Positions 12,722 to 34,946 of a DNA stretch of 34,946 nucleotides are shown here, in pieces; within the stretch, counting starts at the first letter, position 1, and every line of letters starts with the position of its first letter. A model generated the notes under the pieces. That model was not told the DNA's origin and did not search any database. It saw nothing but the letters and a program-made list of their open reading frames with translations. Source of the stretch: Acidimicrobiia bacterium (lineage in GTDB: Bacteria; Actinomycetota; Acidimicrobiia; Spongiisociales; ZC4RG35). Made by a program: the position numbers and the translations under genes. The stretch covers positions 1 through 34,946 of the forward strand of contig JAICGW010000016.1 of assembly GCA_025922945.1 (NCBI GenBank), in the 5' to 3' direction.

Positions 12722-13867
12722 GTGCCTGCTGATCAGGTCGGAGAGAGCGCGGCCGGAAGGCTGACCACCCTGATAGAAGGCTGTCCCCCCGATCGGATCG
12801 GGGCTCTAACAGCCCAAGTGATGATCGACTTAGGGTTAGCCCGATCGGTATCGATCTGGCTGATCGATCACGGCTCTACGCTTTTGGTCGATCTGGTCGG
12901 CACCAAGAGCCCTGTTTCCATGGGGGGTTCCATCGTCGGCCGGGTGGCTACGACGGAAGAAGCCATCGTCCACCAGGAGCGCGCGTATCTCCCGCTGGCT
13001 CGCCGAGGTCAGGTGATCGGGGTCATGGAAATATCGCCCGCGCCCGACGAAGGCATCTCGCAATTAGCCCCGCTCGCGGTCGCGGTTTCGAACGCGGTAT
13101 TGGCCACCAACCTCGTTAGCGATGTGATCGAACGAACCCGCGGAGCGACCAACCTCAGCCTCCCGGCGACCATACAACATCGGAATCTTCCCCTCACTTC
13201 CTACGCCGACGATGAGGTCGAAGTCGGTGCACGCCTCGAGCCCGCTTTCAACATCGCCGGGGACGTCATCGACTATGCCGCTAATCCCGAGGGCATCCAT
13301 CTCGCAATTTTCGATGCCGTCGGCCACGGACTCCGGGCCACCATGCTTTCGACCTGGGCAGTTGCTACGTATCGGTTGATGAGAAGGAAAGGAGCACCGC
13401 TGGCCGAAATCGTTTCTGCGATCGATGAGGTGATCGCTGGCAACGCCGAACGAAACGAGTTTGTGACCGGCATAATGCTCCTCGTCAAACCCGGAGAAGG
13501 AGTCGTCGAAGTTGCCAATGCCGGACATCCGTCCCCGCTTCTGATTCGCGATGGAGCCGCACACTTCTTGACCGGGCCCACGGTTCAACTTCCGATGGGG
13601 CTCGGCGTCTCTTCTTCCGCAAGCCACACGGTGCCGTCGCAACCCCGGGATGTCATCTTCTTGTACAGCGACGGAGTCGTCCAAGCGAGGAACGGAGATC
13701 TCGCCGTTTGGGGAGAGCAAACGCTAAGTGAGCAAGCCGTCGCTCGGACTTCGGAAGGACTGAGCCCGAGCAACATCTGCCGTCAGATTCTGTCGGCAGT
13801 AACTACCTGGTCGAATGACGTCTTGGGTGACGACGCCTCGATCGTTGCCCTACGCCGCAAGGGTTAA
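12722..13867 (+). CDS. GAF-PP2C (SpoIIE/RsbU-type) serine phosphatase
   Basis: A 381-residue phosphatase, probably the input of the adjacent sigma-factor switch. An N-terminal GAF-like sensor (about 15-140) reads IDHGSTLLVDLVGTKSPVSM and YLPLARRGQVIGVMEIS. The SpoIIE domain (about 165-378) has the acidic metal ligands in NIAGDVIDY, IFDAVGHGLRATM, LYSDGVVQAR and GDDASIVAL. The first motif lacks the common GGDFYD form but keeps the Asp. Unlike the paralogue at 631 it has no fused HATPase. GTG 12722 follows TATAAA by 6 nt with no Shine-Dalgarno. The stop overlaps the convergent RsbW-like gene by 4 nt, an arrangement that keeps input and kinase side by side. Confidence 0.88.
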   Translation: MPADQVGESAAGRLTTLIEGCPPDRIGALTAQVMIDLGLARSVSIWLIDHGSTLLVDLVGTKSPVSMGGSIVGRVATTEEAIVHQERAYLPLARRGQVIGVMEISPAPDEGISQLAPLAVAVSNAVLATNLVSDVIERTRGATNLSLPATIQHRNLPLTSYADDEVEVGARLEPAFNIAGDVIDYAANPEGIHLAIFDAVGHGLRATMLSTWAVATYRLMRRKGAPLAEIVSAIDEVIAGNAERNEFVTGIMLLVKPGEGVVEVANAGHPSPLLIRDGAAHFLTGPTVQLPMGLGVSSSASHTVPSQPRDVIFLYSDGVVQARNGDLAVWGEQTLSEQAVARTSEGLSPSNICRQILSAVTTWSNDVLGDDASIVALRRKG

Positions 13868-14199
13868 TCGATCTTTATCTCGAACCAGATACCTGCCCAC
13901 TGGGGATCACCCGTACCCCAGGCGTCGCTCAGCGACTCGACGATTTTGAGGCCGTAACCCGATCCAGGCCGGTGGTCGCCGTTGAGAGTGGTCTCGGACT
14001 GGGCTAGCTGCTGGACTTCGACTCTGAGCACGTCCCCGTCGATGACGCGCAAATAGACCCGGCCTGAGGGTCCGTGGCGGACGGCGTTGGTAACCAACTC
14101 GCTAACCATGAGCACAACATCATCGATCCGATCCCCATCCGCGAGTTTGGCGCGGACGAACTGTCGAGCATCGGCCGGGGCCCTGGGTCCGGCCGTCAT
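13864..14199 (-). CDS. RsbW-like anti-sigma HATPase
   Basis: A 111-residue protein of the HATPase_c_2/RsbW type, expected to bind a SigB/SigF-family sigma factor and phosphorylate a STAS protein. The N-box SELVTNAVRHG (33-43) and the Gly-rich G2 box GSGYGLKIVE (79-88) are intact. The G1 box is poor: RVEVQQLAQSE stands where an Asp-X-Gly is expected, so ATP turnover may be weak. ATG 14199 has no good Shine-Dalgarno, and the frame is open upstream without a better start codon. A SigB/SigF-type promoter lies at 14256-14281. It follows the sigma gene on the same strand after 82 nt. Confidence 0.8.
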   Translation of the reverse strand: MTAGPRAPADARQFVRAKLADGDRIDDVVLMVSELVTNAVRHGPSGRVYLRVIDGDVLRVEVQQLAQSETTLNGDHRPGSGYGLKIVESLSDAWGTGDPQWAGIWFEIKID

Positions 14200-14255: not shown

Positions 14256-14281
14256 ATACCCGGTGGTCGAAAGCTACAAAC
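14256..14281 (-). promoter_or_regulatory. SigB/SigF-type promoter before the RsbW-like gene
   Basis: Read on the minus strand: GTTTGT (14281-14276), 14 nt, GGGTAT (14261-14256). This fits the GTTT-N(13-17)-GGGTAT consensus known for SigB/SigF. It starts right after the sigma-factor stop codon, so the sigma factor could induce its own antagonist separately. Confidence 0.5.
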
Positions 14282-15313
14282 TTACGCGTCGGTGTCCTCT
14301 TTAACCACGCTACGGAGCCGTTCCAGGGCTCTCGCCAGTAGCCGGGAGACGTGCATTTGGGATATACCCACCCGCTCGGCGATCTCGGCCTGGGTCAGGT
14401 CCTCGAAGAACCGGAGATAGACGATCTCCTGCTCGCGCGGCGGTAGCAGGGCTAATTCTTCCGCCAGCTCCGGCCAGCTGCTCATGACGCCGTCGTCATC
14501 GGAGGAAAGCGATTCGGCTGTGGAAGTGCCCGTTACTGGGTCGGTGGCGTCGATCGACTCCCACCGATAAGCGACCCGCGCTTTTTGAGCTTGCAGAACC
14601 TCATCGTTGGTCATTCCCAACTCCTCGGCGATCTCGGAGGCAGTTGGCTGACGGCCGAGTTGCTGTGTCAGGCGGTCGCTGGTCTTGCCGACGTTGAGCG
14701 TTGACTCTTGTAAGGCCCGAGGGACTCGAACCGACCATGCCCGATCGCGCAAATGTCTCTTCAGTTCCCCGGCGATCGTGACCGCAGCAAACGGCTCGAA
14801 GTCCCCCTTCTCCACATCGAAGCGATGCATCGCCGCCACCAGGCCGAGCAACGCCACTTGTTCGAGATCGGCATCGGGTACACCCTTTCCGCGAAAGCGG
14901 CGAGCGATGGATGCGGAGAACGGTGCGAAGCGTCGCACCACTTCTTCTTGATAAAGCGGATCCGCGGCGGCCCTGACAAGCAGGTCGGAGGTTTCGACGT
15001 CGGCCAGAACGGCGCCCGTCCCCGGAGCGCGAACCTGGAACCATATGATCCGGCGTCCGTCACTGCGGTTGTCGCCCCACCGCTGGCTGAGCGTACTGAT
15101 CAGCCGGAGCGACAACGGACTCAGTTCGGGAGCGGCAGGATCGTCGAGGCTTGCGAGCTCGATCCGCCAATCTGCCGGCCCCGCCTCGATCTTCATTTGG
15201 AGGCTGGATCCGCCACTCTCGACGAAGTGACCCACCGCTTCGGTCGCCATCAGTTGCGCCTCGGCCAAACGCAAGGGATCGAGGTGAGTCTGCTCGGCAA
15301 GAATGCGCCGCAC
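14282..15313 (-). CDS. SigB/SigF-family sigma factor with N-terminal RsbW-like domain
   Basis: From GTG 15313 it reads as 343 residues. About 120-200 is sigma region 2 (DLEQVALLGLVAAMHRFD; AGELKRHLRDRAWSVRVPR, characteristic of SigB/SigF), about 205-250 region 3, and about 285-335 region 4 with its helix-turn-helix (TQAEIAERVGISQMHVSRLL). This family normally has 250-270 residues. The extra first 95 look like a worn HATPase: LAEAQLMATEAVGHFVESG matches the N-box helix with the key Asn replaced, and LSLRLISTLSQRWG...WFQV matches the end of RsbW proteins. Homologous-looking residues continue upstream of the GTG (ELPVRREAAQWV), so the true start may lie nearer 15380, perhaps coupled to the STAS stop at 15382; no standard start codon was found there. 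Confidence 0.88.
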   Translation of the reverse strand: MRRILAEQTHLDPLRLAEAQLMATEAVGHFVESGGSSLQMKIEAGPADWRIELASLDDPAAPELSPLSLRLISTLSQRWGDNRSDGRRIIWFQVRAPGTGAVLADVETSDLLVRAAADPLYQEEVVRRFAPFSASIARRFRGKGVPDADLEQVALLGLVAAMHRFDVEKGDFEPFAAVTIAGELKRHLRDRAWSVRVPRALQESTLNVGKTSDRLTQQLGRQPTASEIAEELGMTNDEVLQAQKARVAYRWESIDATDPVTGTSTAESLSSDDDGVMSSWPELAEELALLPPREQEIVYLRFFEDLTQAEIAERVGISQMHVSRLLARALERLRSVVKEDTDA

Positions 15314-15381
15314 CCACTGCGCGGCTTCTCGCCTGACCGGAAGTTCGTGAACGATCGCCGGCCGAGCGTTAGCTAGCTCGC

Positions 15382-15714
15382 TCAGGCAGTTGCCTCCGAG
15401 ACGGAGTCGTAGATACTCAAGAGAGAATCCACTCCGGTGACTGACAGCGTACGAGCCACCGGACCACCGGAAAGCACGATCGACATCTTCCCACCAGCTT
15501 CGTTGACCCGCTCGGAGTTGGTCAGAAGACTGCGAATGCCGGTCGAATCCATGAACGAAACCTCGCTCATGTCGATCACGACGTGGCTGAGGCCGTCCTG
15601 GAGGGCGTTCGCGACGGCCATATCAAGCAGATCCACGGTCGCCAGATCGATTTCGCCCTGGGCCCGCAGCAGTGCCTTTCCGTTGTAGTTCTCAACGGTG
15701 ACCTGGAATGCCAT
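15382..15714 (-). CDS. STAS-domain anti-anti-sigma factor
   Basis: A 110-residue RsbV/SpoIIAA-type STAS protein: AQGEIDLATVDLLDMAVANA, then the switch loop SFMDSTGIRSLL with the canonical Asp-Ser-Thr-Gly, then GGPVARTLSVTGVDSLLSIY. By family, the unphosphorylated form captures the RsbW kinase and frees the sigma factor. ATG 15714 has GGAG six bases upstream; a GTG at 15738 in the same frame lacks this. The sigma gene follows on the same strand, so antagonist and sigma factor are co-transcribed as in classical rsbV-rsbW-sigB loci, except that the rsbW position is taken by a domain fused to the sigma factor. Confidence 0.92.
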   Translation of the reverse strand: MAFQVTVENYNGKALLRAQGEIDLATVDLLDMAVANALQDGLSHVVIDMSEVSFMDSTGIRSLLTNSERVNEAGGKMSIVLSGGPVARTLSVTGVDSLLSIYDSVSEATA

Positions 15715-15792
15715 GGAGTTCTCCGTTGACGAGAGCACGAACTATCGATCCTAGCTCTCGTCCAAACCCCTGCGCGAAAGCGGCGATTGGTT

Positions 15793-15819
15793 GTTTACGC
15801 CCCAGGCGGCCGAGGGTAT
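15793..15819 (+). promoter_or_regulatory. SigB/SigF-type promoter for the membrane protein/csbD operon
   Basis: GTTTAC (15793-15798), 15 nt, GGGTAT (15814-15819): a close match to the SigB/SigF consensus. The predicted start is near 15827, giving a 5' UTR of about 27 nt with AAAGGAG before GTG 15854. Confidence 0.65.
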
Positions 15820-16071: not shown

Positions 16072-16296
16072 ATGGATCGTGATTCAATGAGCCGTACCGA
16101 TTGGGGCGGCCAGATGATCGACGAAGGTCGGTGGGACCAGGCCCGGGGCAAGATCCGGGAGACCTGGGGCGATGTCACCGATGATGACCTTGACGAGGCC
16201 CATGGCAACTGGGACCAGCTCGTAGGCAAAATCAAGGAGAAGACTGGCGAGACCACCGATGCTATAGAGCGCAAGCTCCGCGAGTGGTTCTCCTAG
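16072..16296 (+). CDS. csbD: CsbD-family stress protein
   Basis: A 74-residue hydrophilic protein with the CsbD pattern: DEGRWDQARGKIRETWGDVT, then DLDEAHGNWDQLVGKIKEKT and GETTDAIERKLREW. CsbD is a general-stress protein of the SigB regulon in Bacillus; its molecular role is unknown. GGGGGAGG at 16057-16064 serves ATG 16072. It lies 14 nt behind the membrane protein, and a strong terminator follows 16 nt after its stop. The location beside the sigma-factor operon supports direct control by that sigma factor. Confidence 0.92.
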   Translation: MDRDSMSRTDWGGQMIDEGRWDQARGKIRETWGDVTDDDLDEAHGNWDQLVGKIKEKTGETTDAIERKLREWFS

Positions 16297-27197: not shown

Positions 27198-27785
27198 TCA
27201 CCGCTTGGGCCGTAGGTCCTCTATGTCATCGGCGGTGTCGACGTCGCGGGGTGGCCGCGCTTCGAACCACACCTCCTCCACCCATTCGGGATGGGCCTTG
27301 AAAAGCGGCTTGGCTCCGGCATCTCCCTCGAGACTCATCAATCGTCCCCAAAGCGGCCTTTCGACCAAGACCGGATTTCCCCACTCGTACCTGTACTTGG
27401 GCACGATCACCTGTCGTTGCGTGCGGCGTTGCGCATCCAACAATGCCTGGACCACGTCCTGGTCCACCTCGGGTTGATCGCCGAGGAAAATGAGAACGGA
27501 TTCGGCTCGGGTCAGGCGAAGGATGGCGTCCAGCCCCACCCGCAGCGAGGAAGCCATCCCCCCCTCCCACTCCAGATTCTCGACAACCACCCAACCGCTG
27601 AAATCGACCTCAGCCAGGATGCGCTCGGTTTCGGCTCCGAGAACGACGAAGCGATGGTCAAAAGGCCCCTTGGCCACCTCGGCCAGGACATGGCCGAGGA
27701 GGGTGCCCTCCCCCCACGGCTCGATCTGCTTGGGCCGTCCAAGTCTCTGCGAAGCTCCTCCCGCCAGCACAAGCGCCGCAATCAC
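27198..27785 (-). CDS. mocA: MobA/MocA-type molybdenum cofactor nucleotidyltransferase
   Basis: A 195-residue NTP-transferase: ALVLAGGASQRLGRPKQIEP at the N-terminus is the nucleotide-binding signature; FLGDQPEVDQDVV holds the metal Asp; EWGNPVLVERPLWGRL and GDAGAKPLFKAH complete the family pattern. In CO-dehydrogenase and xanthine-dehydrogenase loci such enzymes convert molybdopterin to its cytosine dinucleotide (MCD), the cofactor of CoxL; MocA is therefore the likely role, by context. GTG 27785 follows the xdhC/coxF stop by 18 nt, with TAGCGT 7 nt before it. The symbol is by analogy. Confidence 0.86.
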   Translation of the reverse strand: MIAALVLAGGASQRLGRPKQIEPWGEGTLLGHVLAEVAKGPFDHRFVVLGAETERILAEVDFSGWVVVENLEWEGGMASSLRVGLDAILRLTRAESVLIFLGDQPEVDQDVVQALLDAQRRTQRQVIVPKYRYEWGNPVLVERPLWGRLMSLEGDAGAKPLFKAHPEWVEEVWFEARPPRDVDTADDIEDLRPKR

Positions 27786-27792
27786 CGACCGG

Positions 27793-27798
27793 ACGCTA
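27793..27798 (-). promoter_or_regulatory. Possible internal -10 box before mocA
   Basis: TAGCGT on the minus strand, 7 nt before GTG 27785, between the coxF stop and mocA. It may be chance. Confidence 0.25.
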
Positions 27799-27803
27799 CC
27801 CCC

Positions 27804-28865
27804 TCAATCGCTCGGCAAGAAGCGGGCCTTCCCGATCAAGTCGAGTTCCTGGTCCCCTCGCCGGGTGGCAGCGATCACCTCCGCCAGGATCGCGACCGCG
27901 ATCTCGGCCGGGGTGCTGGCGCCGATGTCCTTGCCAATGGGGCCGTGGATACGATCGATCGAGCTCTCGTCGTATCCGGCGCTGAGGAGCCTCTGTCGCC
28001 GCCGCCGCGTGGTGCCGGAGCTCCCCATCGCCCCGATATAGGCGGCGTCGCTGGCGAGGACCTGGGGCCACAGCGGGTCCTCGAAGCGGGCGTCATGGCT
28101 GAGAATGACCACCGCCGTTCCGCGGTCGAAAACCAGGTCCAGTTGGTCGGGCCAGCCAGGCAGCAGTTCGTCGGCATCAGGAAAACGATCTCTGGTGAGA
28201 AATGCCGGGCGAGCATCACTGACGGTGACGCGGTAGCCGAGTCGCTTGGCCATTGGCACCAGTTCCTGGGCGATGTGCACGGCACCGAAGATGAGCATGT
28301 GCGGAGCCGGGGCGATGCTCTCGACGTAGGCCTCGTGGTCGCCGTATTCGAGAGTGAGATTCGTGCCCCTGGCGAGGAGCTGCGCCGCGTCCGCAATCAC
28401 ACTTTGTTCGATTGCAGACGGGATCGCCCCCGCAGTCACCCGGCCGTCGACGACGAGCGCACTCTGACCCAGATTCTCACCGCCGACCATGGTCACCAAT
28501 GACCCATATCCGTCTGCTGCGATCAACTCCTCGATCGCATCGAGCACGGGGCTCGCACTTTGGTCCTCGAGAAAGACCTGAATGCGACCACCGCATGCCA
28601 GCCCTACCTCGAAGGCCTCGTCGTCGGCGATCCCGTACCCGACCAGCTCGGGGCGCTCGTCATCGAGAACCTTCTGCAGGCGAAGAAAAACGTCATTCTC
28701 CACGCACCCTCCGGAGACCGAGCCTGCCATCTCCCCAGCCGAGGAAATCATGAAGCGCGATCCCACCGGGCGGGGTGCCGACCCCGAGACACGGGCGACG
28801 GTGGCGAACCCCACCCTTTTTCCTTCCGCCAGCCAGGAACGCCGGCGCCGCAGTTCCTCAATCAT
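27804..28865 (-). CDS. coxF: XdhC/CoxF-family molybdenum cofactor maturation protein
   Basis: A 353-residue XdhC/CoxI-type chaperone that holds molybdenum cofactor and helps its sulfuration and insertion in hydroxylases. The N-terminal XdhC domain shows FATVARVSGSAPRPVGSRFM and MAGSVSGGCVENDVF (47-60, with the conserved Cys), then GLACGGRIQVFLE. The C-terminal Rossmann-like part has LIFGAVHIAQELVPMAKRLG, SDARPAFLTRDRFP and AAYIGAMGSSGTTRRR. ATG 28865 lies 8 nt inside the end of coxE, so the genes are coupled. The name coxF or coxI varies among loci; I use coxF for position after coxE. Confidence 0.9.
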   Translation of the reverse strand: MIEELRRRRSWLAEGKRVGFATVARVSGSAPRPVGSRFMISSAGEMAGSVSGGCVENDVFLRLQKVLDDERPELVGYGIADDEAFEVGLACGGRIQVFLEDQSASPVLDAIEELIAADGYGSLVTMVGGENLGQSALVVDGRVTAGAIPSAIEQSVIADAAQLLARGTNLTLEYGDHEAYVESIAPAPHMLIFGAVHIAQELVPMAKRLGYRVTVSDARPAFLTRDRFPDADELLPGWPDQLDLVFDRGTAVVILSHDARFEDPLWPQVLASDAAYIGAMGSSGTTRRRRQRLLSAGYDESSIDRIHGPIGKDIGASTPAEIAVAILAEVIAATRRGDQELDLIGKARFLPSD

Positions 28866-30006
28866 GGATGGCCACCTGGGGCACGGGGCGGGTGTGGCTC
28901 GAAATCGACTCCAGAACCGCCACCACCGTCTCGAGGTTGGAAAAATTCGTTACCGGCAGAAAATCATCAACGTAAGGAAGCGCGGCTTTCATCCCTCGCG
29001 TCAGGGGCGCGTATGCCGGGCGACCGGCGAGCGGGTTCAACCAGATCACTCGATGGACGCTCCGATGAAGACGCGCCATCTCGGTAGCAAGCAAAACCGG
29101 ATCACCTCGATCCCAGCCATCGGAGATGATGACCGCCACGGGTCCGCCCCGACCGACCCGACGCGACCAATTCCGGTTGAACGAGGCGATGGCTTCTCCG
29201 ATTCGAGTACCGCTCGACCAGTCGCTCACCGTGCCGGCCACCTCGGTGATGGCGAGCGAAGGGTCACGTCGCTCGAGCTGTCGAGTGATTCTGGTGAGGT
29301 GGGTGGCGAAGACGAAGGCCTCCAATCGCCCCAGGCGACCGCGGGCCGCGTGGGCGAAATAGAGCAGCATCTCCGTGTACCGCTCCATTGAGCCGGAGAC
29401 GTCGGCGATGATGATGAGAGGGCGGCGACGTCGTTTTCGTTCCACGAACTCGAGTTTCATCAAGTCCGCTTCCGGACCCACCGTTCGGTGAAGCGATCGA
29501 CGGAGATCGGGTCGGCCTCGATGCAAAGCCGGGCGCTGACGGCGGCTCCTTGCCTGAGCTGGGGCCCAAACCATGGAGTCGATGAGCGCCCTGATCTCGG
29601 CCACCTCCTTCGCAGTCAGTGTCGCGAAGTCGCGCTGGCGGAGGCGCTCGATTGCCGAGGCCCCGGTGGTTCGCAGCCGGCTCTCCTCGCCTTCCGCCCC
29701 TTCAGGTGTGCCCTCGCCCGGAGTTTTGACGGACCAGGAACGAGACTTCGGCGAGACGTTCAGGATCACAGGCACTGCCTCCTCCCGGAAGAAGGCCATA
29801 AAGACGCGAGCGAAGACCTGGTACTGGTTGGCGTCGGTGCAGCACACCGCTCTCAGGGCGTAGAAAACATCACCGGGCGCAGCTAGACCAACCACGTCGA
29901 TGGCCCGCAGTACCTCTGCCGTGGTTCCCGCCGGCACCGGAATTCCCTCGCGACGCAGGCGGCTGACGAATCTCACCAGCACTTCGAGACTGGCGGCGGC
30001 ACTCAC
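28858..30006 (-). CDS. coxE: CoxE, von Willebrand factor A-domain protein
   Basis: A 382-residue VWA protein of CO-dehydrogenase maturation. With the MoxR-type ATPase CoxD it is thought to build the sulfur-bridged metal centre of the hydroxylase. The N-terminal helical part includes FVSRLRREGIPVPAGTTAEV and DVFYALRAVCC. The VWA domain has the MIDAS motif IIADVSGSM (about 199-207), the conserved Thr in VSDWSSGTRIGEA, and VIISDGWDRGDP. GTG 30006 overlaps the M15 stop by 4 nt (GTGA) and gives the expected N-terminus; an in-frame ATG at 30045 would add 13 residues overlapping the peptidase end. Confidence 0.92.
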   Translation of the reverse strand: MSAAASLEVLVRFVSRLRREGIPVPAGTTAEVLRAIDVVGLAAPGDVFYALRAVCCTDANQYQVFARVFMAFFREEAVPVILNVSPKSRSWSVKTPGEGTPEGAEGEESRLRTTGASAIERLRQRDFATLTAKEVAEIRALIDSMVWAPAQARSRRQRPALHRGRPDLRRSLHRTVGPEADLMKLEFVERKRRRRPLIIIADVSGSMERYTEMLLYFAHAARGRLGRLEAFVFATHLTRITRQLERRDPSLAITEVAGTVSDWSSGTRIGEAIASFNRNWSRRVGRGGPVAVIISDGWDRGDPVLLATEMARLHRSVHRVIWLNPLAGRPAYAPLTRGMKAALPYVDDFLPVTNFSNLETVVAVLESISSHTRPVPQVAIHD

Positions 30007-31220
30007 CCCGGCCGGCAGTCTCCCGCAGCCGGCCGCAAATACCAAAGACCGCCGGCATAAAGCGGCAACACCGTCAGGTCAGAGCAGTTACTCGAATAAC
30101 TCAGTGGCAGTTGGCGCCATTCGAAATGCATTCCATCGGGAGTGCTCCATGAGCCTCCCCAGGAAAATCCCCACCGGCGAAACGTCTCGACGACAGCCAG
30201 CGGCAGGGTTGGGGGAACCCCGTATTGATTGGTCGACGGGTTGACGTCGATGGCTATTCCCCAGGCGTGACGTGAGAGCGAATAACCGGGATCCGCCCCC
30301 CGATTGAAGCGGGGGTTGTAGCAACCCCCGGCCAGTTGGAAGTCGGCTGGATCGAGCATCTGGATCAAGCTCGATCGTTCGAGCTCGGAGATCACTCCCC
30401 GCAGATACGGGACCAGAAGTCGGTGGCAGCGAAAGAGTCCGAGAGGTGCCAGATCGACGTCGACGATGTTGGCTTCAACCCACGCCGGATCTATCTCCAC
30501 CTGGTCCCCCCCGGCAGCGCGAATGGCAAATTCCCCGAATCGGAATTTCACCGCCGCCACCGAAAGAACCGGATCGGTGAGCTCATCGTCGATCAATCCG
30601 TCGATCCGAACGTCCGGGTCAAAGGTGCTCCCCCGCACTGCCGCCTCCACGCGGTCGAGCCCCGATCCATAGGCGACGATGGCAAACGGGCGATCGACGC
30701 CGAGTTGAAGTGCGGTCGTCTTTCCGACCAGGAGCTCGGAATTGAATATCTCGTCTTCGGGAACGATCGCCCCGACGGGAATGGTGACAGTTCCCCCGGT
30801 CAAAGGCTCGAGATCAAGCAAGTCACCCACCGACGCGCCCCTGATCGCAGCACTCGCCTCGCTCAGAACCGCCTCGCCACGAGCCAAGACCATCCTCACC
30901 GTCTCGCTCGCGATCGGCGCGACGGGGTCGATGGCCGCGGTCAGCAGCGGATAGCCGAATCCGGTCGGCGCCAACTGGACAAAGGTCTCGCCTCGTCGGA
31001 GCGACCACAGGCGGAGAGTCACCCGGTCGAGAACACTCACCGAGGCCCCGTTCACCGCCGCCGCCCCCGACACGATGCCGATGGTCTCGGGGCTGAGCCC
31101 ACCGCTCTCCCGCACCTGCAGCAACGCCGGTTTTGGCGATACCTCGACCGGTTCTTGCGCGGCAGCCGGAAGGCTCGAGAGGAGCAGACTCAGCACGATC
31201 AGTCCGCGGAGGATCCTCAT
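30003..31220 (-). CDS. Exported M15 (VanY-like) D,D-carboxypeptidase inside the cox operon
   Basis: A 405-residue secreted protein. The signal peptide MRILRGLIVLSLLLSSLPAA ends near AQA. Residues about 25-270 form a beta-rich region with no family I recognise. The C-terminal part is an M15-type peptidase: LSRHAWGIAIDVNPSTN gives the SxHxxGxAxD zinc motif, and TPDGMHFEWRQL supplies the final His. Several Cys (FRCHR, GGCYNP, SSNCSD, GDCRPG) may form disulfides. The substrate would be peptidoglycan stem peptides. It is coupled by 4-nt overlaps to both coxD (ATGA) and coxE (GTGA), so it is co-translated with two cytoplasmic maturation proteins, which is odd for a cell-wall enzyme. Confidence 0.87.
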   Translation of the reverse strand: MRILRGLIVLSLLLSSLPAAAQEPVEVSPKPALLQVRESGGLSPETIGIVSGAAAVNGASVSVLDRVTLRLWSLRRGETFVQLAPTGFGYPLLTAAIDPVAPIASETVRMVLARGEAVLSEASAAIRGASVGDLLDLEPLTGGTVTIPVGAIVPEDEIFNSELLVGKTTALQLGVDRPFAIVAYGSGLDRVEAAVRGSTFDPDVRIDGLIDDELTDPVLSVAAVKFRFGEFAIRAAGGDQVEIDPAWVEANIVDVDLAPLGLFRCHRLLVPYLRGVISELERSSLIQMLDPADFQLAGGCYNPRFNRGADPGYSLSRHAWGIAIDVNPSTNQYGVPPTLPLAVVETFRRWGFSWGGSWSTPDGMHFEWRQLPLSYSSNCSDLTVLPLYAGGLWYLRPAAGDCRPG

Positions 31221-32098
31221 TCGTGCACCAGAGCTTCCAGTCCGTGCTCGCGAACCCGCTCGATATCCTCGCGATACTTCAGGACCGTGCCCAGGCTCTC
31301 GTCGATCGTGGTCGGATCGAGATGGCTGGCGGCGAGGACCTTCAGGGCCGCAGCCCAGTCCAGGGTCTCCGCCACGCCCGGCGGCTTGAAAAGATCGAGG
31401 GCTCGCAGGTCCGACATTGCCATCGCCAGCTGTCGGGCTAGCGCCTCATCCACCCCTGGCATCCGGGCCCGGAGAATCTCCACTTCGCGCTCCACCGATG
31501 GGTAGTCGAGCCAGTGATAAAGGCACCGCCGCTTGAGAGCGTCGTGGATTTCGCGGGTGCGGTTGGAGGTGATCACCACCACCGGCGGCTCTTCGGCTCG
31601 AATGGTGCCGATCTCGGGCAGGGTTACCTGAAAATCCGAAAGCAGCTCGAGCAAGTAGGCCTCGAATTCCTCATCGGCTCGATCGAGCTCGTCGATCAGC
31701 AACACCGGGCTTTTGCCGAGCGCGGATGCCTCGATCGCCTGCAGAAGCGGTCGTGGTCGCAGGTATTCCCGGCTCATGATGTCTGATACATCGGCTTCGC
31801 CGCCCTCACCTCGAGCCTCGATCAGCCGGATCGCCAGCATCTGGCGGGCGTAATCCCATTCGTAGAGAGCCTGGCTGGCATCGAGACCCTCGTAGCACTG
31901 GAGACGGATGAGGTCGGTCTCCAGGATCTCCGCCAACACCTTGGCGACTTCCGTCTTGCCAACTCCGGCTTCACCCTCGAGAAATAGAGGTCGGCCCAGG
32001 CGCAGACCGAGAAAGGTTGTGACTGCCAGGCCACGATCGGCTACGTAGCCGGTGCGGGCGAACGCGGCAATGACCGCTTCGACAGATTCGGGGACCAC
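31217..32098 (-). CDS. coxD: CoxD, MoxR-type AAA+ ATPase
   Basis: A 293-residue AAA+ ATPase of the MoxR class that works with CoxE to mature the molybdenum centre of CoxL. Walker A GEAGVGKTE is at 42-50, Walker B LLIDELDRADEEFEAYLLEL at about 133-152, sensor 1 VVITSNRTREIHDAL, and the arginine region ALKRRCLYHWLDYP. LQCYEGLDASQALYEWDYAR is a segment typical of CoxD. The start is GTG 32098; TAGACT lies 6 nt before it and no usable Shine-Dalgarno exists, so this gene may head its own leaderless transcript, separated from coxLM by a palindromic repeat. Confidence 0.93.
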   Translation of the reverse strand: MVPESVEAVIAAFARTGYVADRGLAVTTFLGLRLGRPLFLEGEAGVGKTEVAKVLAEILETDLIRLQCYEGLDASQALYEWDYARQMLAIRLIEARGEGGEADVSDIMSREYLRPRPLLQAIEASALGKSPVLLIDELDRADEEFEAYLLELLSDFQVTLPEIGTIRAEEPPVVVITSNRTREIHDALKRRCLYHWLDYPSVEREVEILRARMPGVDEALARQLAMAMSDLRALDLFKPPGVAETLDWAAALKVLAASHLDPTTIDESLGTVLKYREDIERVREHGLEALVHE

Positions 32099-32104
32099 TC
32101 CCGA

Positions 32105-32110
32105 AGTCTA
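32105..32110 (-). promoter_or_regulatory. Candidate -10 box of leaderless coxD
   Basis: TAGACT on the minus strand, 6 nt before GTG 32098, just downstream of the palindromic repeat. Confidence 0.4.
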
Positions 32111-32120
32111 GGAATCCTCG

Positions 32121-32166
32121 CCCCCCTCCCGGCTTTGCCGGCTCTCCCCCCTGCGGGAGAGAAACC
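32121..32166. repeat. Dispersed palindromic GC-rich repeat, copy C
   Basis: CCCCCCTCCCGGCTTTGCCG then GCTCTCCCCCCTGCGGGAGA then GAAACC. It matches the left module of copy B almost base for base. It lies within the cox locus between coxM and coxD and could lower read-through. Confidence 0.68.
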
Positions 32167-32168
32167 GG

Positions 32169-33011
32169 TTAGGCGGAAAGAGCCCTCTTGATCGCTCGCT
32201 TGGCGAAGACCCTCGCCAGGTGGGTCTTGTACTCGACGGAGCCGTACAGGTCCTCGAGAATCGTCAGTCCGTCGGCCGCCTTGGCCGCAGCCTCTTCGAT
32301 CGCCTGGTCCGAGCCGTCGGTCCCGATGAGAGCCTCTGCCGTGGCATTGGCCAGGGTCGGCTTGGCGGCGACGCCGGTCAGGCCAACCCGGGCATCTGAG
32401 ATCGATCCGTTGTCCTTTTGAAGCCAAGCGGCGGCTCCGGCGACGGCATAGTCGGTGCGCCCACCGCGCCGGCCCAGCTTGTCGTAGGCCGACATGCCAT
32501 CCTTTCGGACCTTGACGGCGGTAACGACCTCGTCGGGCTCGACCGCGGTGGTGAGGGCGTCGACGAAAAAGTCATCGGCGGCAATCTCTCTGGTCCCGTT
32601 CGGTCCCTGGGCGACGATTACTCCACCGAGCGCGAGCACGGCCGAGGGTTGATCCGCTGCCAGATCGCCGTGGACCACCGCCCCCACCGTCGTTCCCCGG
32701 TTACGCACCTGGACGTCGCCGGTATAGGAGGCGGCCTGCGCCAGAGCCCGGGGCACGTTCTGAGCTTCCGCCGTCTGGTAATGACGCACCAGTGCTCCGA
32801 TCGACACCATGTCGCCGCGATCGTCGATGGAATCGAGCCCCGAGATGCGACCGATGTCAACCACCAGCTCGGGAGAAACGAGCCTCAGCTTCATCAACGG
32901 CAAGAGACTCATTCCCCCCGACATCACCTTGGCGAACTCCGATCCCTTGAGGGCCGCTATCGCCTCTTCGATCGAAGCGGGGGCCACATATTCGAATGCC
33001 CTTGGGAACAC
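32169..33011 (-). CDS. coxM: CoxM, FAD-binding medium subunit of a CO-dehydrogenase-like hydroxylase
   Basis: A 280-residue flavoprotein subunit that passes electrons from the FeS subunit to the quinone pool in this family. FEYVAPASIEEAIAALKG is the usual start; VMSGGMSLLPLMKLRLVSPE and NRGTTVGAVVHGDLAADQPS are the two FAD loops. The typical forms are AGGxS and TxGGxxxHxDPxxD; here the second loop reads TVGAVVHGDLAAD, slightly divergent. The C-terminal domain has EVVTAVKVRK and YDKLGRRGGRTDYAVAGAAA. GTG 33011 has AAGGAG six bases upstream, inside the end of coxL. Gene order L then M fits form II loci (S-L-M). Confidence 0.93.
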   Translation of the reverse strand: MFPRAFEYVAPASIEEAIAALKGSEFAKVMSGGMSLLPLMKLRLVSPELVVDIGRISGLDSIDDRGDMVSIGALVRHYQTAEAQNVPRALAQAASYTGDVQVRNRGTTVGAVVHGDLAADQPSAVLALGGVIVAQGPNGTREIAADDFFVDALTTAVEPDEVVTAVKVRKDGMSAYDKLGRRGGRTDYAVAGAAAWLQKDNGSISDARVGLTGVAAKPTLANATAEALIGTDGSDQAIEEAAAKAADGLTILEDLYGSVEYKTHLARVFAKRAIKRALSA

Positions 33012-33013
33012 GA

Positions 33014-34946
33014 TTAGCTCCTTACCCCGTTGCTTGCTTCCTGGATGGCTTGCCAGACCCGACGAGAGCGCAACGGCATGTCGATATGGCGAACTCCCAG
33101 GTCGTAGAGAGCGTCGACCGCGGCATTGACAATCGTCTGCGCCGACCCGATCGTGCCCGCCTCCCCCACGCCTTTCACCCCCAGTGGGTTGACGTTGGAA
33201 GGCGTCACCGTCCGATGCAGCTCAAAGAGGGGCACATCTGTGGCGGTGGGAAGCGGATAGTCGACCAGGGAGCCAGTCAAGAGGTTGCCCTCGGCGTCAT
33301 AGATCGCGTCCTCCATCATCGCCTGGGCAATTCCCTGCACCAATCCGCCGTGGAGTTGGCCATTGACGATCATCGGATTGATGACGTTGCCGCAGTCATC
33401 CATCGTCACGTACCGCAGGAGCCTGGTGTCACCGGTCTCGGGATCGACTTCCACTAGAGCGGCGTGGGCCCCAAAGGGCCACGTCGCGTTGCTGGGGCTG
33501 AACACCGATTGCGCTTCCAGTCCTCCCTCCATGCCCTCAGGCAATTGATGTGGCTGATAGGCGCGGGTGACGATCTCCTCCCAGGTCACCGACTTGTCGG
33601 GAGATCCCGCGACGTGTGCGGCCCCGCCGCCGAACTCGATGTCGTCGGCCGACGCCTCGAGAATGTGGGCGGCGATTTGCGCTGCCTTGGCCTTGACCTT
33701 CAACGCCGCCTCGTAGGCAGCCGAGCCGTCCACCGCGGCTGAACGTGAACCGAACGTGCCGATCCCCATCGGTGATTCGGTGGTCATCCCGTGGCTGACT
33801 CGGACTTTGTCGTAGTCGAGGCCGAGCTGATCTGACACGAGCTGGGCCCAGGCGGTCTGGTGTCCCTGACCGGAAGGCCCGGTGCCGATGATGACGGTGG
33901 CACTGGCGTCGGGGTTGATCCGCACCAGACCAGACCCGGAGAAGGCGGCGGGCAAGCCGTAGGCGGCCCACGAGAAGCCAAGACCGGCCAGAGCGGAGGG
34001 ACCGAAGCCACACACCTCCACATAGCTGGAAAGACCGAGGCCGACATGACGGCCCTGGCTGCGCGCCTGGTCCCGCTCTTTCTTCATCTCGGCGTACTCC
34101 TCCGTCGCCACCAGCGCCTCCAGGTTCTCCTGGTACTCGCCCGTGTCGTGGGTGAACCCGATCGGCGAGGTGGCGTTGGGGAAGGAGTCGGCGGGTATGA
34201 AGTTCTTGATCCGCACTTCGGCCGGATCCATGCCGATCTCGCGCGCATAGGCGTCGACAATCCGCTCCAGGTAGTACATCGCCTCGGGTCGGCCGGCACC
34301 GCGGTAGGCATCGGTGGTCATCGTGTGCGTGGTGACGCAGGCGATCTTCCAGTGGGTGGGGAACTTGTACTGGCCGGCGCCGACAAACGTCCCAAGGAAG
34401 GGAATGGCGACCGTGAAATTCATGGTGTACGCGCCCATATCGGCCAGCCCGTCGAGTTCGAAACCGAGAATCTCCCCGTCTTTGGTGCCGGTGATGGTGG
34501 CCGTAGCCACCCAGCCTCGGCCCTGGATGGTGTTGTTGGGCGATTCCCGCCGGGACTCGGTGTATTTCACCGGCCGGTTGAGTTGCATCGAGGCAAAGGC
34601 CGTCAGAATCTCATCGGCGTAAATATTGAGCTTGGCGCCGAACCCTCCGCCCACCTCGGGCGCGGTGACATCAACCGAGTTGGAGGCGAGACCGAAGGTC
34701 TTGGCAATGGCCCCAGCCAGGGCATGAGGGATCTGGGTCGAGGAATAGATCGTGAAGCGGCCATAGCCCTCGTTCCAATCGGCAGCTACCGCCCTCGGCT
34801 CTATGGCCGTGGGGATTAGCCGCTGGTTGATCATCTCCTGGCTGACCACCACCACGTCATCTCGCCTTTTGGCCTCGGCGATCGTCTCGCGGGTGGCGGC
34901 GATTCCCTCCTCGTTGCCCCAGGGACCTCCCTCCCAGGTGATCAGG
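33014..34946 (-). CDS. coxL: CoxL, form II molybdenum large subunit of CO-dehydrogenase-like hydroxylase (N-terminus outside window)
   Basis: 644 residues of the large subunit are present, open to the right edge (reading in with ITWEGGPWGNEEGIAATRET); a full CoxL has about 770-800, so roughly 130-150 are missing. A GTG at 34855 is internal, not the start. Visible motifs are QRLIPTAIEPRAVAAD, the cofactor loop VGGGFGAKLN, the active-site loop AYRGAGR (34289-34309) and the catalytic Glu in KGVGEAGTIGSAQ. AYRGAGR marks form II; true form I CO dehydrogenases have AYXCSFR with a copper-ligand Cys. Form II enzymes have doubtful or low CO activity and may hydroxylate other substrates. No frameshift is seen. 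Confidence 0.95.
   Translation of the reverse strand, partial: LITWEGGPWGNEEGIAATRETIAEAKRRDDVVVVSQEMINQRLIPTAIEPRAVAADWNEGYGRFTIYSSTQIPHALAGAIAKTFGLASNSVDVTAPEVGGGFGAKLNIYADEILTAFASMQLNRPVKYTESRRESPNNTIQGRGWVATATITGTKDGEILGFELDGLADMGAYTMNFTVAIPFLGTFVGAGQYKFPTHWKIACVTTHTMTTDAYRGAGRPEAMYYLERIVDAYAREIGMDPAEVRIKNFIPADSFPNATSPIGFTHDTGEYQENLEALVATEEYAEMKKERDQARSQGRHVGLGLSSYVEVCGFGPSALAGLGFSWAAYGLPAAFSGSGLVRINPDASATVIIGTGPSGQGHQTAWAQLVSDQLGLDYDKVRVSHGMTTESPMGIGTFGSRSAAVDGSAAYEAALKVKAKAAQIAAHILEASADDIEFGGGAAHVAGSPDKSVTWEEIVTRAYQPHQLPEGMEGGLEAQSVFSPSNATWPFGAHAALVEVDPETGDTRLLRYVTMDDCGNVINPMIVNGQLHGGLVQGIAQAMMEDAIYDAEGNLLTGSLVDYPLPTATDVPLFELHRTVTPSNVNPLGVKGVGEAGTIGSAQTIVNAAVDALYDLGVRHIDMPLRSRRVWQAIQEASNGVRS

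Follow-up and report, generated by a model that had tools for sequence, protein, structure and literature searches.

In partner switching, the usual arrangement is a free anti-sigma kinase moving back and forth between a sigma factor and a STAS protein. The window analysed here, a stretch of 34,946 nucleotides that is contig 16 of a metagenome-assembled acidimicrobial genome (2.56 Mb in 179 contigs, 94.6% complete), encodes a sigma factor with a long N-terminal extension, and the locus raises the question of what this extension is, what it does within the sigma factor polypeptide and how the two came to be joined. The original prediction had described the extension as about 95 residues with the layout of an RsbW HATPase. 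The N-terminal excess is real, though its length had been underestimated: the extra part comprises about 130 residues, and the sigma factor begins from about residue 134-146 of the 367-codon frame. The gene and its two parts are laid out as follows.

14282 to 15385, minus strand: fusion gene, 367 aa, joining an HATPase_c (RsbW-like) domain to a complete SigB/SigF/SigG-type sigma factor, with a probable CTG start.
15029 to 15364, minus strand: N-terminal degenerate HATPase_c domain, residues 8-119 (AlphaFold, Foldseek, profiles and motif table).
14285 to 14950, minus strand: sigma-70 regions 2, 3 and 4, about residues 146-367 (Pfam).

The sigma regions are preceded by a linker of about 15 residues and the native SigB N-terminus, and the Pfam matches to sigma-70 regions 2, 3 and 4 all exceed the cut-off. 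The best NCBIfam subfamily of the sigma part is TIGR02980 (SigBFG) with 222.1 bits, which lies below the 234.35-bit cut-off of that model, and its best match in the PDB is SigB of S. aureus (8x6g, E 7e-38), with a further match to sigma-F (1l0o_C, E 1e-28). No STAS match was obtained within the fusion protein with Pfam, which sets it apart from the STAS-sigma fusion of the sigma-SsdA type. Of the sigma factors with region 3 in the window genome, the fusion is the sole SigB/F/G-type sigma factor identified, the others being three RpoD-like proteins, one WhiG-like protein and one weak unclassified match.

The same architecture was sought in related genomes and recovered at 16 loci in 15 genomes, with open reading frames in all 16. 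Comparison of these loci bears on the start codon. The CTG at 15385 (15382-15385) forms a CTGA overlap with the stop codon of the preceding STAS gene and is preceded by GGAGG seven bases upstream, and a four-base overlap with the preceding gene was seen in each of the seven fusion loci checked, the window included (GTGA in L049; ATGA in L057, L145 and L056; TTGA in L058 and L059). In addition, the start of L145, ATG-AGC-GAG-CTC, aligns with CTG-AGC-GAG-CTA of the window, and the CTG is either itself the start or derives from an ordinary start codon by a single base change. A GTG start at 15313 was rejected as too late, as it deletes strand 1 along with some of helix 1, and the homologues begin upstream.

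Structure prediction of the N-terminal region, folded on its own, returned an HATPase_c/RsbW fold with high confidence (pLDDT 96, pTM 0.88; topology E-H-H-E-E-H-E-E). It was folded alone because the AlphaFold model of the full-length protein (mean pLDDT 90, pTM 0.53) retrieved only sigma factors among the best 50 Foldseek matches. With the separate domain as query, the top 20 PDB matches were all RsbW, UsfX, SpoIIAB or the RsbW domain of Rv1364c, at TM-scores of 0.72-0.82 by query length. Pfam alone gave no HATPase match (PF13581) for the N-terminal domain of the window, and homologue profiles and structure were therefore used; among 12 homologues, five did match Pfam HATPase_c_2 at E 0.05 or better, the best at 7e-6. 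Since the fold alignment itself contains separate HATPases, independent sequence support comes from a profile of separate HATPases that includes no fused sequence, which matched the window domain with 34.5 bits (E = 6e-8), as against 8.8 bits for the best of 2000 shuffles. Alignment of the fused and separate HATPase profiles by hhalign reached 99.8% (E = 9e-29). The N-terminal domain is thus an HATPase_c domain beyond chance, and the reading of the extra region as an unrelated linker was ruled out by the Foldseek and profile tests. The proposed fusion of an RsbW-like HATPase domain to a sigma factor has accordingly been borne out by fold, profiles and homologues; the architecture is well supported, and the mechanism is what we infer from it.

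The residues for catalysis and for binding have fared differently in this domain. As predicted, an N-box-like helix is recognizable with its Asn replaced: Glu49 is kept and the position of the Asn is occupied by His53. The G1 box is lost, with no D-x-G-x-G motif, and the G2 box is eroded, so that neither the N-box Asn nor the G1 Asp of the RsbW/SpoIIAB serine kinases is present next to the kept catalytic Glu49, and catalysis looks lost from these motifs. The fused domains as a group tend the same way. The Mg-binding N-box Asn is gone from 8 of 14, whereas all 21 separate kinase-type (B-type) HATPases carry it, and the G1 Asp is gone from 13 of 14, the exception being L147. Arg26 and Glu49, which correspond to Arg20/Glu46 of SpoIIAB and Arg23/Glu49 of RsbW in alignments to the RsbW/SpoIIAB chains, are the same in every one of the 42 HATPase-like sequences that were compared. 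In the solved complexes the equivalent Arg contacts both sigma factor and STAS protein, and the catalytic Glu contacts the STAS serine (PMC10345196, PMC7340262); both residues of the SpoIIAB/RsbW contact face for sigma and STAS are therefore kept in the window domain. The dN/dS ratios of the N-terminal domain were 0.26 between the window and L049 (a nearly saturated comparison), 0.12 between L056 and L146 and 0.05 between L058 and L059, above those of the sigma part yet clearly constrained. The invariant Arg and Glu, together with these ratios, argue that the domain is not junk.

The neighbouring genes supply the other parts of a partner-switching module.

15382 to 15738, minus strand: STAS anti-anti-sigma gene, RsbV/RsfB-like (Pfam PF01740, 6e-23).
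13864 to 14199, minus strand: separate HATPase_c_2 gene (PF13581, 2.5e-9), candidate STAS kinase (RsbW2-like).
12722 to 13867, plus strand: GAF-SpoIIE (PP2C) phosphatase gene (PF07228, 1.4e-38, with a weak GAF_2 match), convergent with the operon.

On the minus strand the order is STAS gene (15738-15382), fusion gene (15385-14282) and separate HATPase gene (14199-13864), the last starting 82 bp downstream of the fusion. The STAS gene had been correctly placed ahead of the fusion and lies in the same operon; the separate HATPase gene and the PP2C gene had been overlooked. The STAS protein, the best PDB match of which is RsfB (8ih8_A, 2.5e-13), retains the DS-TG phospho-acceptor motif, with the serine at position 65 counted from GTG 15738 or 57 from ATG 15714. 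In the separate HATPase the N-box (SELVTNAVRHG) and the G2 box are intact and the G1 Asp is absent, and with this residue lost its kinase activity is uncertain; separate HATPases with the G1 Asp occupy the same place in L051, L053 and L055.

Most fusion loci adjoin STAS, HATPase and/or PP2C genes. A separate HATPase gene lies within the fusion operon in the window, L051, L053, L055, L057, L058 and L059, and is absent at the locus from L049, the closest relative, and from L054, while the window, L049, L051, L055 and L057-L060 have a PP2C gene next to the fusion. All parts of the module are present in the window, namely a STAS protein with a phosphorylatable serine, an HATPase and a PP2C phosphatase. 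The suggestion that the switch may not need phosphorylation does not fit this gene content, since the STAS protein still has its phosphorylatable serine and the fusion is flanked, in the window as in many relatives, by genes for an HATPase with an intact N-box and for PP2C, and STAS phosphorylation probably still matters. The division of roles in M. smegmatis, where RsbW1 binds SigF, RsbW2 is the kinase and RsbW3 binds RsbW1 (PMC7693655), argues in the same direction. As a separate observation, in L058 (3863-4615) and L059 (4196-4948) the gene immediately preceding the HATPase-sigma fusion itself joins the separate HATPase to the STAS domain, and most of the switch thereby resides in two polypeptides.

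The motif GTTT-N14-17-GGGTAT, which is taken here to be the SigB/SigF-type promoter consensus, was found on both sides of the STAS-fusion gene pair.

14256 to 14281, minus strand: promoter motif GTTT-N16-GGGTAT, between the stop codon of the fusion, which it adjoins, and the separate HATPase gene.
15793 to 15819, plus strand: promoter motif GTTT-N17-GGGTAT, which faces away from the STAS operon and leads into the gene for a small membrane protein, followed by csbD.
16072 to 16296, plus strand: CsbD-like general stress gene (PF05532, 2.5e-19), second in the operon behind the motif at 15793 to 15819.

These two exact motifs compare with 0.05 expected in the window. The motif behind the fusion takes the same position in L051, and in L149 it follows a non-fused sigma gene. 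The window genome holds 13 motifs, as against 4 in a reversed-pattern control; six fusion genomes gave 59 against 16 in the control and seven family members without the fusion gave 48 against 38 (Fisher p = 0.003), a comparison of related genomes, chosen after the motif had been seen, that expresses association only. A 16-base spacer is preferred (p 0.006). The looser motif (GGGTAT or GGGTAA) occurred 36 times in 366 kb of compared loci, with 0.45 expected, and many of its sites precede ribosome-binding sites and start codons. The sigma factor of the fusion looks active.

The fusion is carried by 13 genomes in 9 genera of the window's family, where one locus (L060 in G222) is cut by a contig end; two sister families contribute one genome apiece. 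No fusion was found in the rest of the 395 genomes of the class or in 397 sampled genomes of the phylum, in searches in which only about eight candidates per genome were scored and a very different independent fusion could escape. In the sigma tree the fusions cluster, a single origin is compatible with the data (AU p = 0.46), but one change accounts for the distribution in only 42% of the bootstrap trees. G086 has two copies of the fusion, L051 and L054, the second without STAS or HATPase neighbours. L147 (998-2107), from a third family, keeps the G1 Asp, has Asp in place of the N-box Asn and carries a separate small HATPase gene of the A-type described below before the fusion; it may represent a second, independent origin.

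Where members of the order lack the fusion, the SigB gene is immediately preceded by a small HATPase gene without the N-box Asn, and several further families of the class show the same arrangement. These small HATPase genes, designated A-type and matched by PF13581 in 20 of 21 cases, resemble the mycobacterial anti-SigF protein UsfX/RsbW1 in position and in the lost N-box. A separate A-type gene is found between the STAS gene and the fusion in L145 (from the sister lineage of the window genus), L146, L056 and L147, and weakly in L050. The fused domains align with the kinase-type (B-type) HATPases at E 9e-29 and with the A-type at 1.9e-6 (hhalign), and the A-type profile gave the window domain 8.2 bits, the best shuffle reaching 6.8; its sequence is thus not of the UsfX/RsbW1 type. 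In the HATPase tree, built on 120 columns with most forks unresolved, the main A-type clade (99*) excludes the fused domains. Because the fused domain is closer to the B-type and the A-type gene persists beside the fusion in relatives, the fused domain is, judging by sequence, an additional HATPase related to the kinase-type HATPases. No clear UsfX/RsbW1-type gene was found in the window genome as assembled (94.6% complete) or in G086; the window genus probably lost its ancestral A-type anti-sigma gene at a later stage. With the trans-acting UsfX/RsbW1-like anti-sigma gene, common in the class, missing from the assembled window genome, the fused domain is the best candidate for its job.

The leading model, to which we give about an even chance of being right, is that the built-in, kinase-dead RsbW-type domain serves as an in-cis, STAS-responsive anti-sigma module. 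In the resting state, the N-terminal domain would mask part of the sigma factor via its SpoIIAB/RsbW-type face. On activation, the unphosphorylated STAS protein would bind the same face through Arg26 and Glu49 and set the sigma factor free. The adjoining N-box-bearing HATPase would phosphorylate the STAS protein and switch the system off, PP2C would reverse the phosphorylation, and the sigma factor would transcribe the separate HATPase gene from the SigB-type promoter, closing a negative feedback loop. The fusion, its fold, the catalytic-motif decay, the kept binding residues, the purifying selection, the module content and the promoter motif underlying this model were computed; inhibition in cis, release by STAS and the kinase and feedback roles are proposed on their basis.

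SpoIIAB and RsbW bind their sigma factors as dimers (2:1), and a 1:1 fusion that does not pair with an outside partner gives no such complex, which speaks against the in-cis anti-sigma model. The same stoichiometry would be restored if the fused domain were a pairing or docking half, forming a mixed dimer with the separate HATPase or with a UsfX/RsbW1-like protein, one partner being tethered to the sigma factor. Dimerization of the RsbW/SpoIIAB type proceeds via strand 1 and helix 1 (PMC7340262), both of which are included in the fusion from the CTG start; a separate HATPase gene is at hand in the operon of the window and of the other loci listed above; and RsbW3 of M. smegmatis provides a precedent of an HATPase homologue that does not bind sigma and acts via RsbW1 (PMC7693655). 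A further point against the in-cis model is that several relatives keep a UsfX/RsbW1-like gene next to the fusion, and in these the inhibitor may be a protein other than the fused domain. We regard such pairing as the main rival to inhibition in cis and as less likely than it; L049 and L054, which have the fusion without a separate HATPase gene at the locus, speak against it. The placement of the domains in the full-length AlphaFold model, with no confident docking of the N-terminal domain on the sigma regions (pTM 0.53), does not decide between this arrangement and inhibition in cis.

It appears improbable that the N-terminal domain is just a stabilizing appendage or a remnant in decay, with control exerted by other HATPases or by transcription. 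The domain changes at roughly double the rate of the sigma part (48% against 69% identity between the window and L049) and its motifs have eroded repeatedly, but the dN/dS values well below 1, the open frames at every locus, the intact fold and the invariant Arg and Glu do not agree with decay. Even less credit is due to the original proposal that an rsbV-rsbW-sigB operon had its rsbW merged into the sigma gene, leaving a switch free of phosphorylation, which we consider highly improbable: the order of STAS gene and fusion, the overlapping genes in the window and L049 and the absence there of a UsfX-type gene would suit it, but L145, L146, L056 and L147 possess a STAS gene, a separate UsfX/RsbW1-like gene and the fusion side by side, the fused domain groups away from the UsfX/RsbW1-like type, and the phosphorylation machinery is kept. 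The chance of an assembly or gene-call artefact, for which the metagenomic origin of the genome and the unusual CTG start could be cited, is practically negligible, given that independent genomes with the same architecture already refute it.

Returning to inhibition in cis, the relatives can be arranged in possible stages, from a fusion with an intact N-box and a separate anti-sigma gene (L145, L050), through a fusion that retains the N-box at a locus lacking a separate anti-sigma gene (L051, L053, L055), to a fusion with a dead N-box and no anti-sigma gene (window, L049). We tentatively propose, with somewhat less than even confidence, that a kinase-type HATPase became fused to a SigB-type sigma factor, lost catalysis and replaced the trans-acting anti-sigma factor of the window lineage, yielding a self-inhibiting sigma factor opened by STAS; the stages seen in the relatives would then still preserve the steps of that path.

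The arrangement differs from the known systems in several respects. RsbW-SigB and SpoIIAB-sigmaF of Bacillus share with it the same two domains, the expected contact surface, a STAS partner and PP2C, but the Bacillus HATPase is separate, catalytically active and both kinase and anti-sigma factor, whereas the HATPase domain of the window is fused to sigma, without the Mg-binding Asn and the G1 box, and has a second HATPase gene alongside. To our knowledge, Rv1364c of Mycobacterium tuberculosis has no sigma factor in its fusion. It is comparable in uniting several partner-switch domains (RsbU, RsbW) in one protein (PDB 3ke6). RsbW1/UsfX-SigF of Mycobacterium is similar in the split between kinase-dead and kinase-type HATPases, the STAS serine switch, the SigB/F-type sigma factor and the UsfX-like genes beside SigB in the window's class; all its components are separate proteins, and the fused domain is of another sequence type than UsfX/RsbW1.

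A sigma factor with a partner-switch domain is already known in one case, sigma-SsdA of Actinoplanes missouriensis, in which the STAS domain is located at the sigma C-terminus and the HATPase in another protein, SipA (PMC10733313). Both systems place a partner-switch domain within the sigma polypeptide, whereas the window fusion has the HATPase at the N-terminus and the STAS protein separate. ECF41 and similar ECF sigma factors, as far as the accessible text of PMC3426412 and PMC8999054 goes, have fused C-terminal regulatory domains and offer a precedent in kind for a regulatory domain built into a sigma factor; they belong to another sigma group, the extension is C-terminal and, within that text, no kinship to HATPases or partner switching appears. 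No description of an HATPase-sigma fusion was found in the literature searched (open-licence papers). If true, a sigma factor with a built-in, catalytically dead HATPase would mean that gene fusion is able to rewire the switch, with the sigma:anti-sigma stoichiometry fixed in cis and the part of inhibitor split from that of kinase in a novel manner. Its evolutionary route can be tested through the series of relatives.

Further observations concern the surroundings of the locus. Other SigB-type motifs in the window genome (L192, L193, L194 and L196) mark possible regulon members, the genes behind them being, by eye, small YtxH-like, formate-dehydrogenase-like and small membrane protein genes. 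A second partner-switching cluster in the window, at 631-2946 on the plus strand, encodes a GAF-SpoIIE-HATPase_c_2 protein followed by two STAS genes. Positions 27198-34855 hold a molybdenum hydroxylase cluster with a MoCoBD large subunit bearing an AYRGAGR motif, an FAD subunit, a CoxE-like VWA protein, an AAA ATPase and XdhC- and MocA-like proteins, the last four assigned by eye except CoxE; this cluster possibly encodes a form II CO-dehydrogenase-like enzyme.
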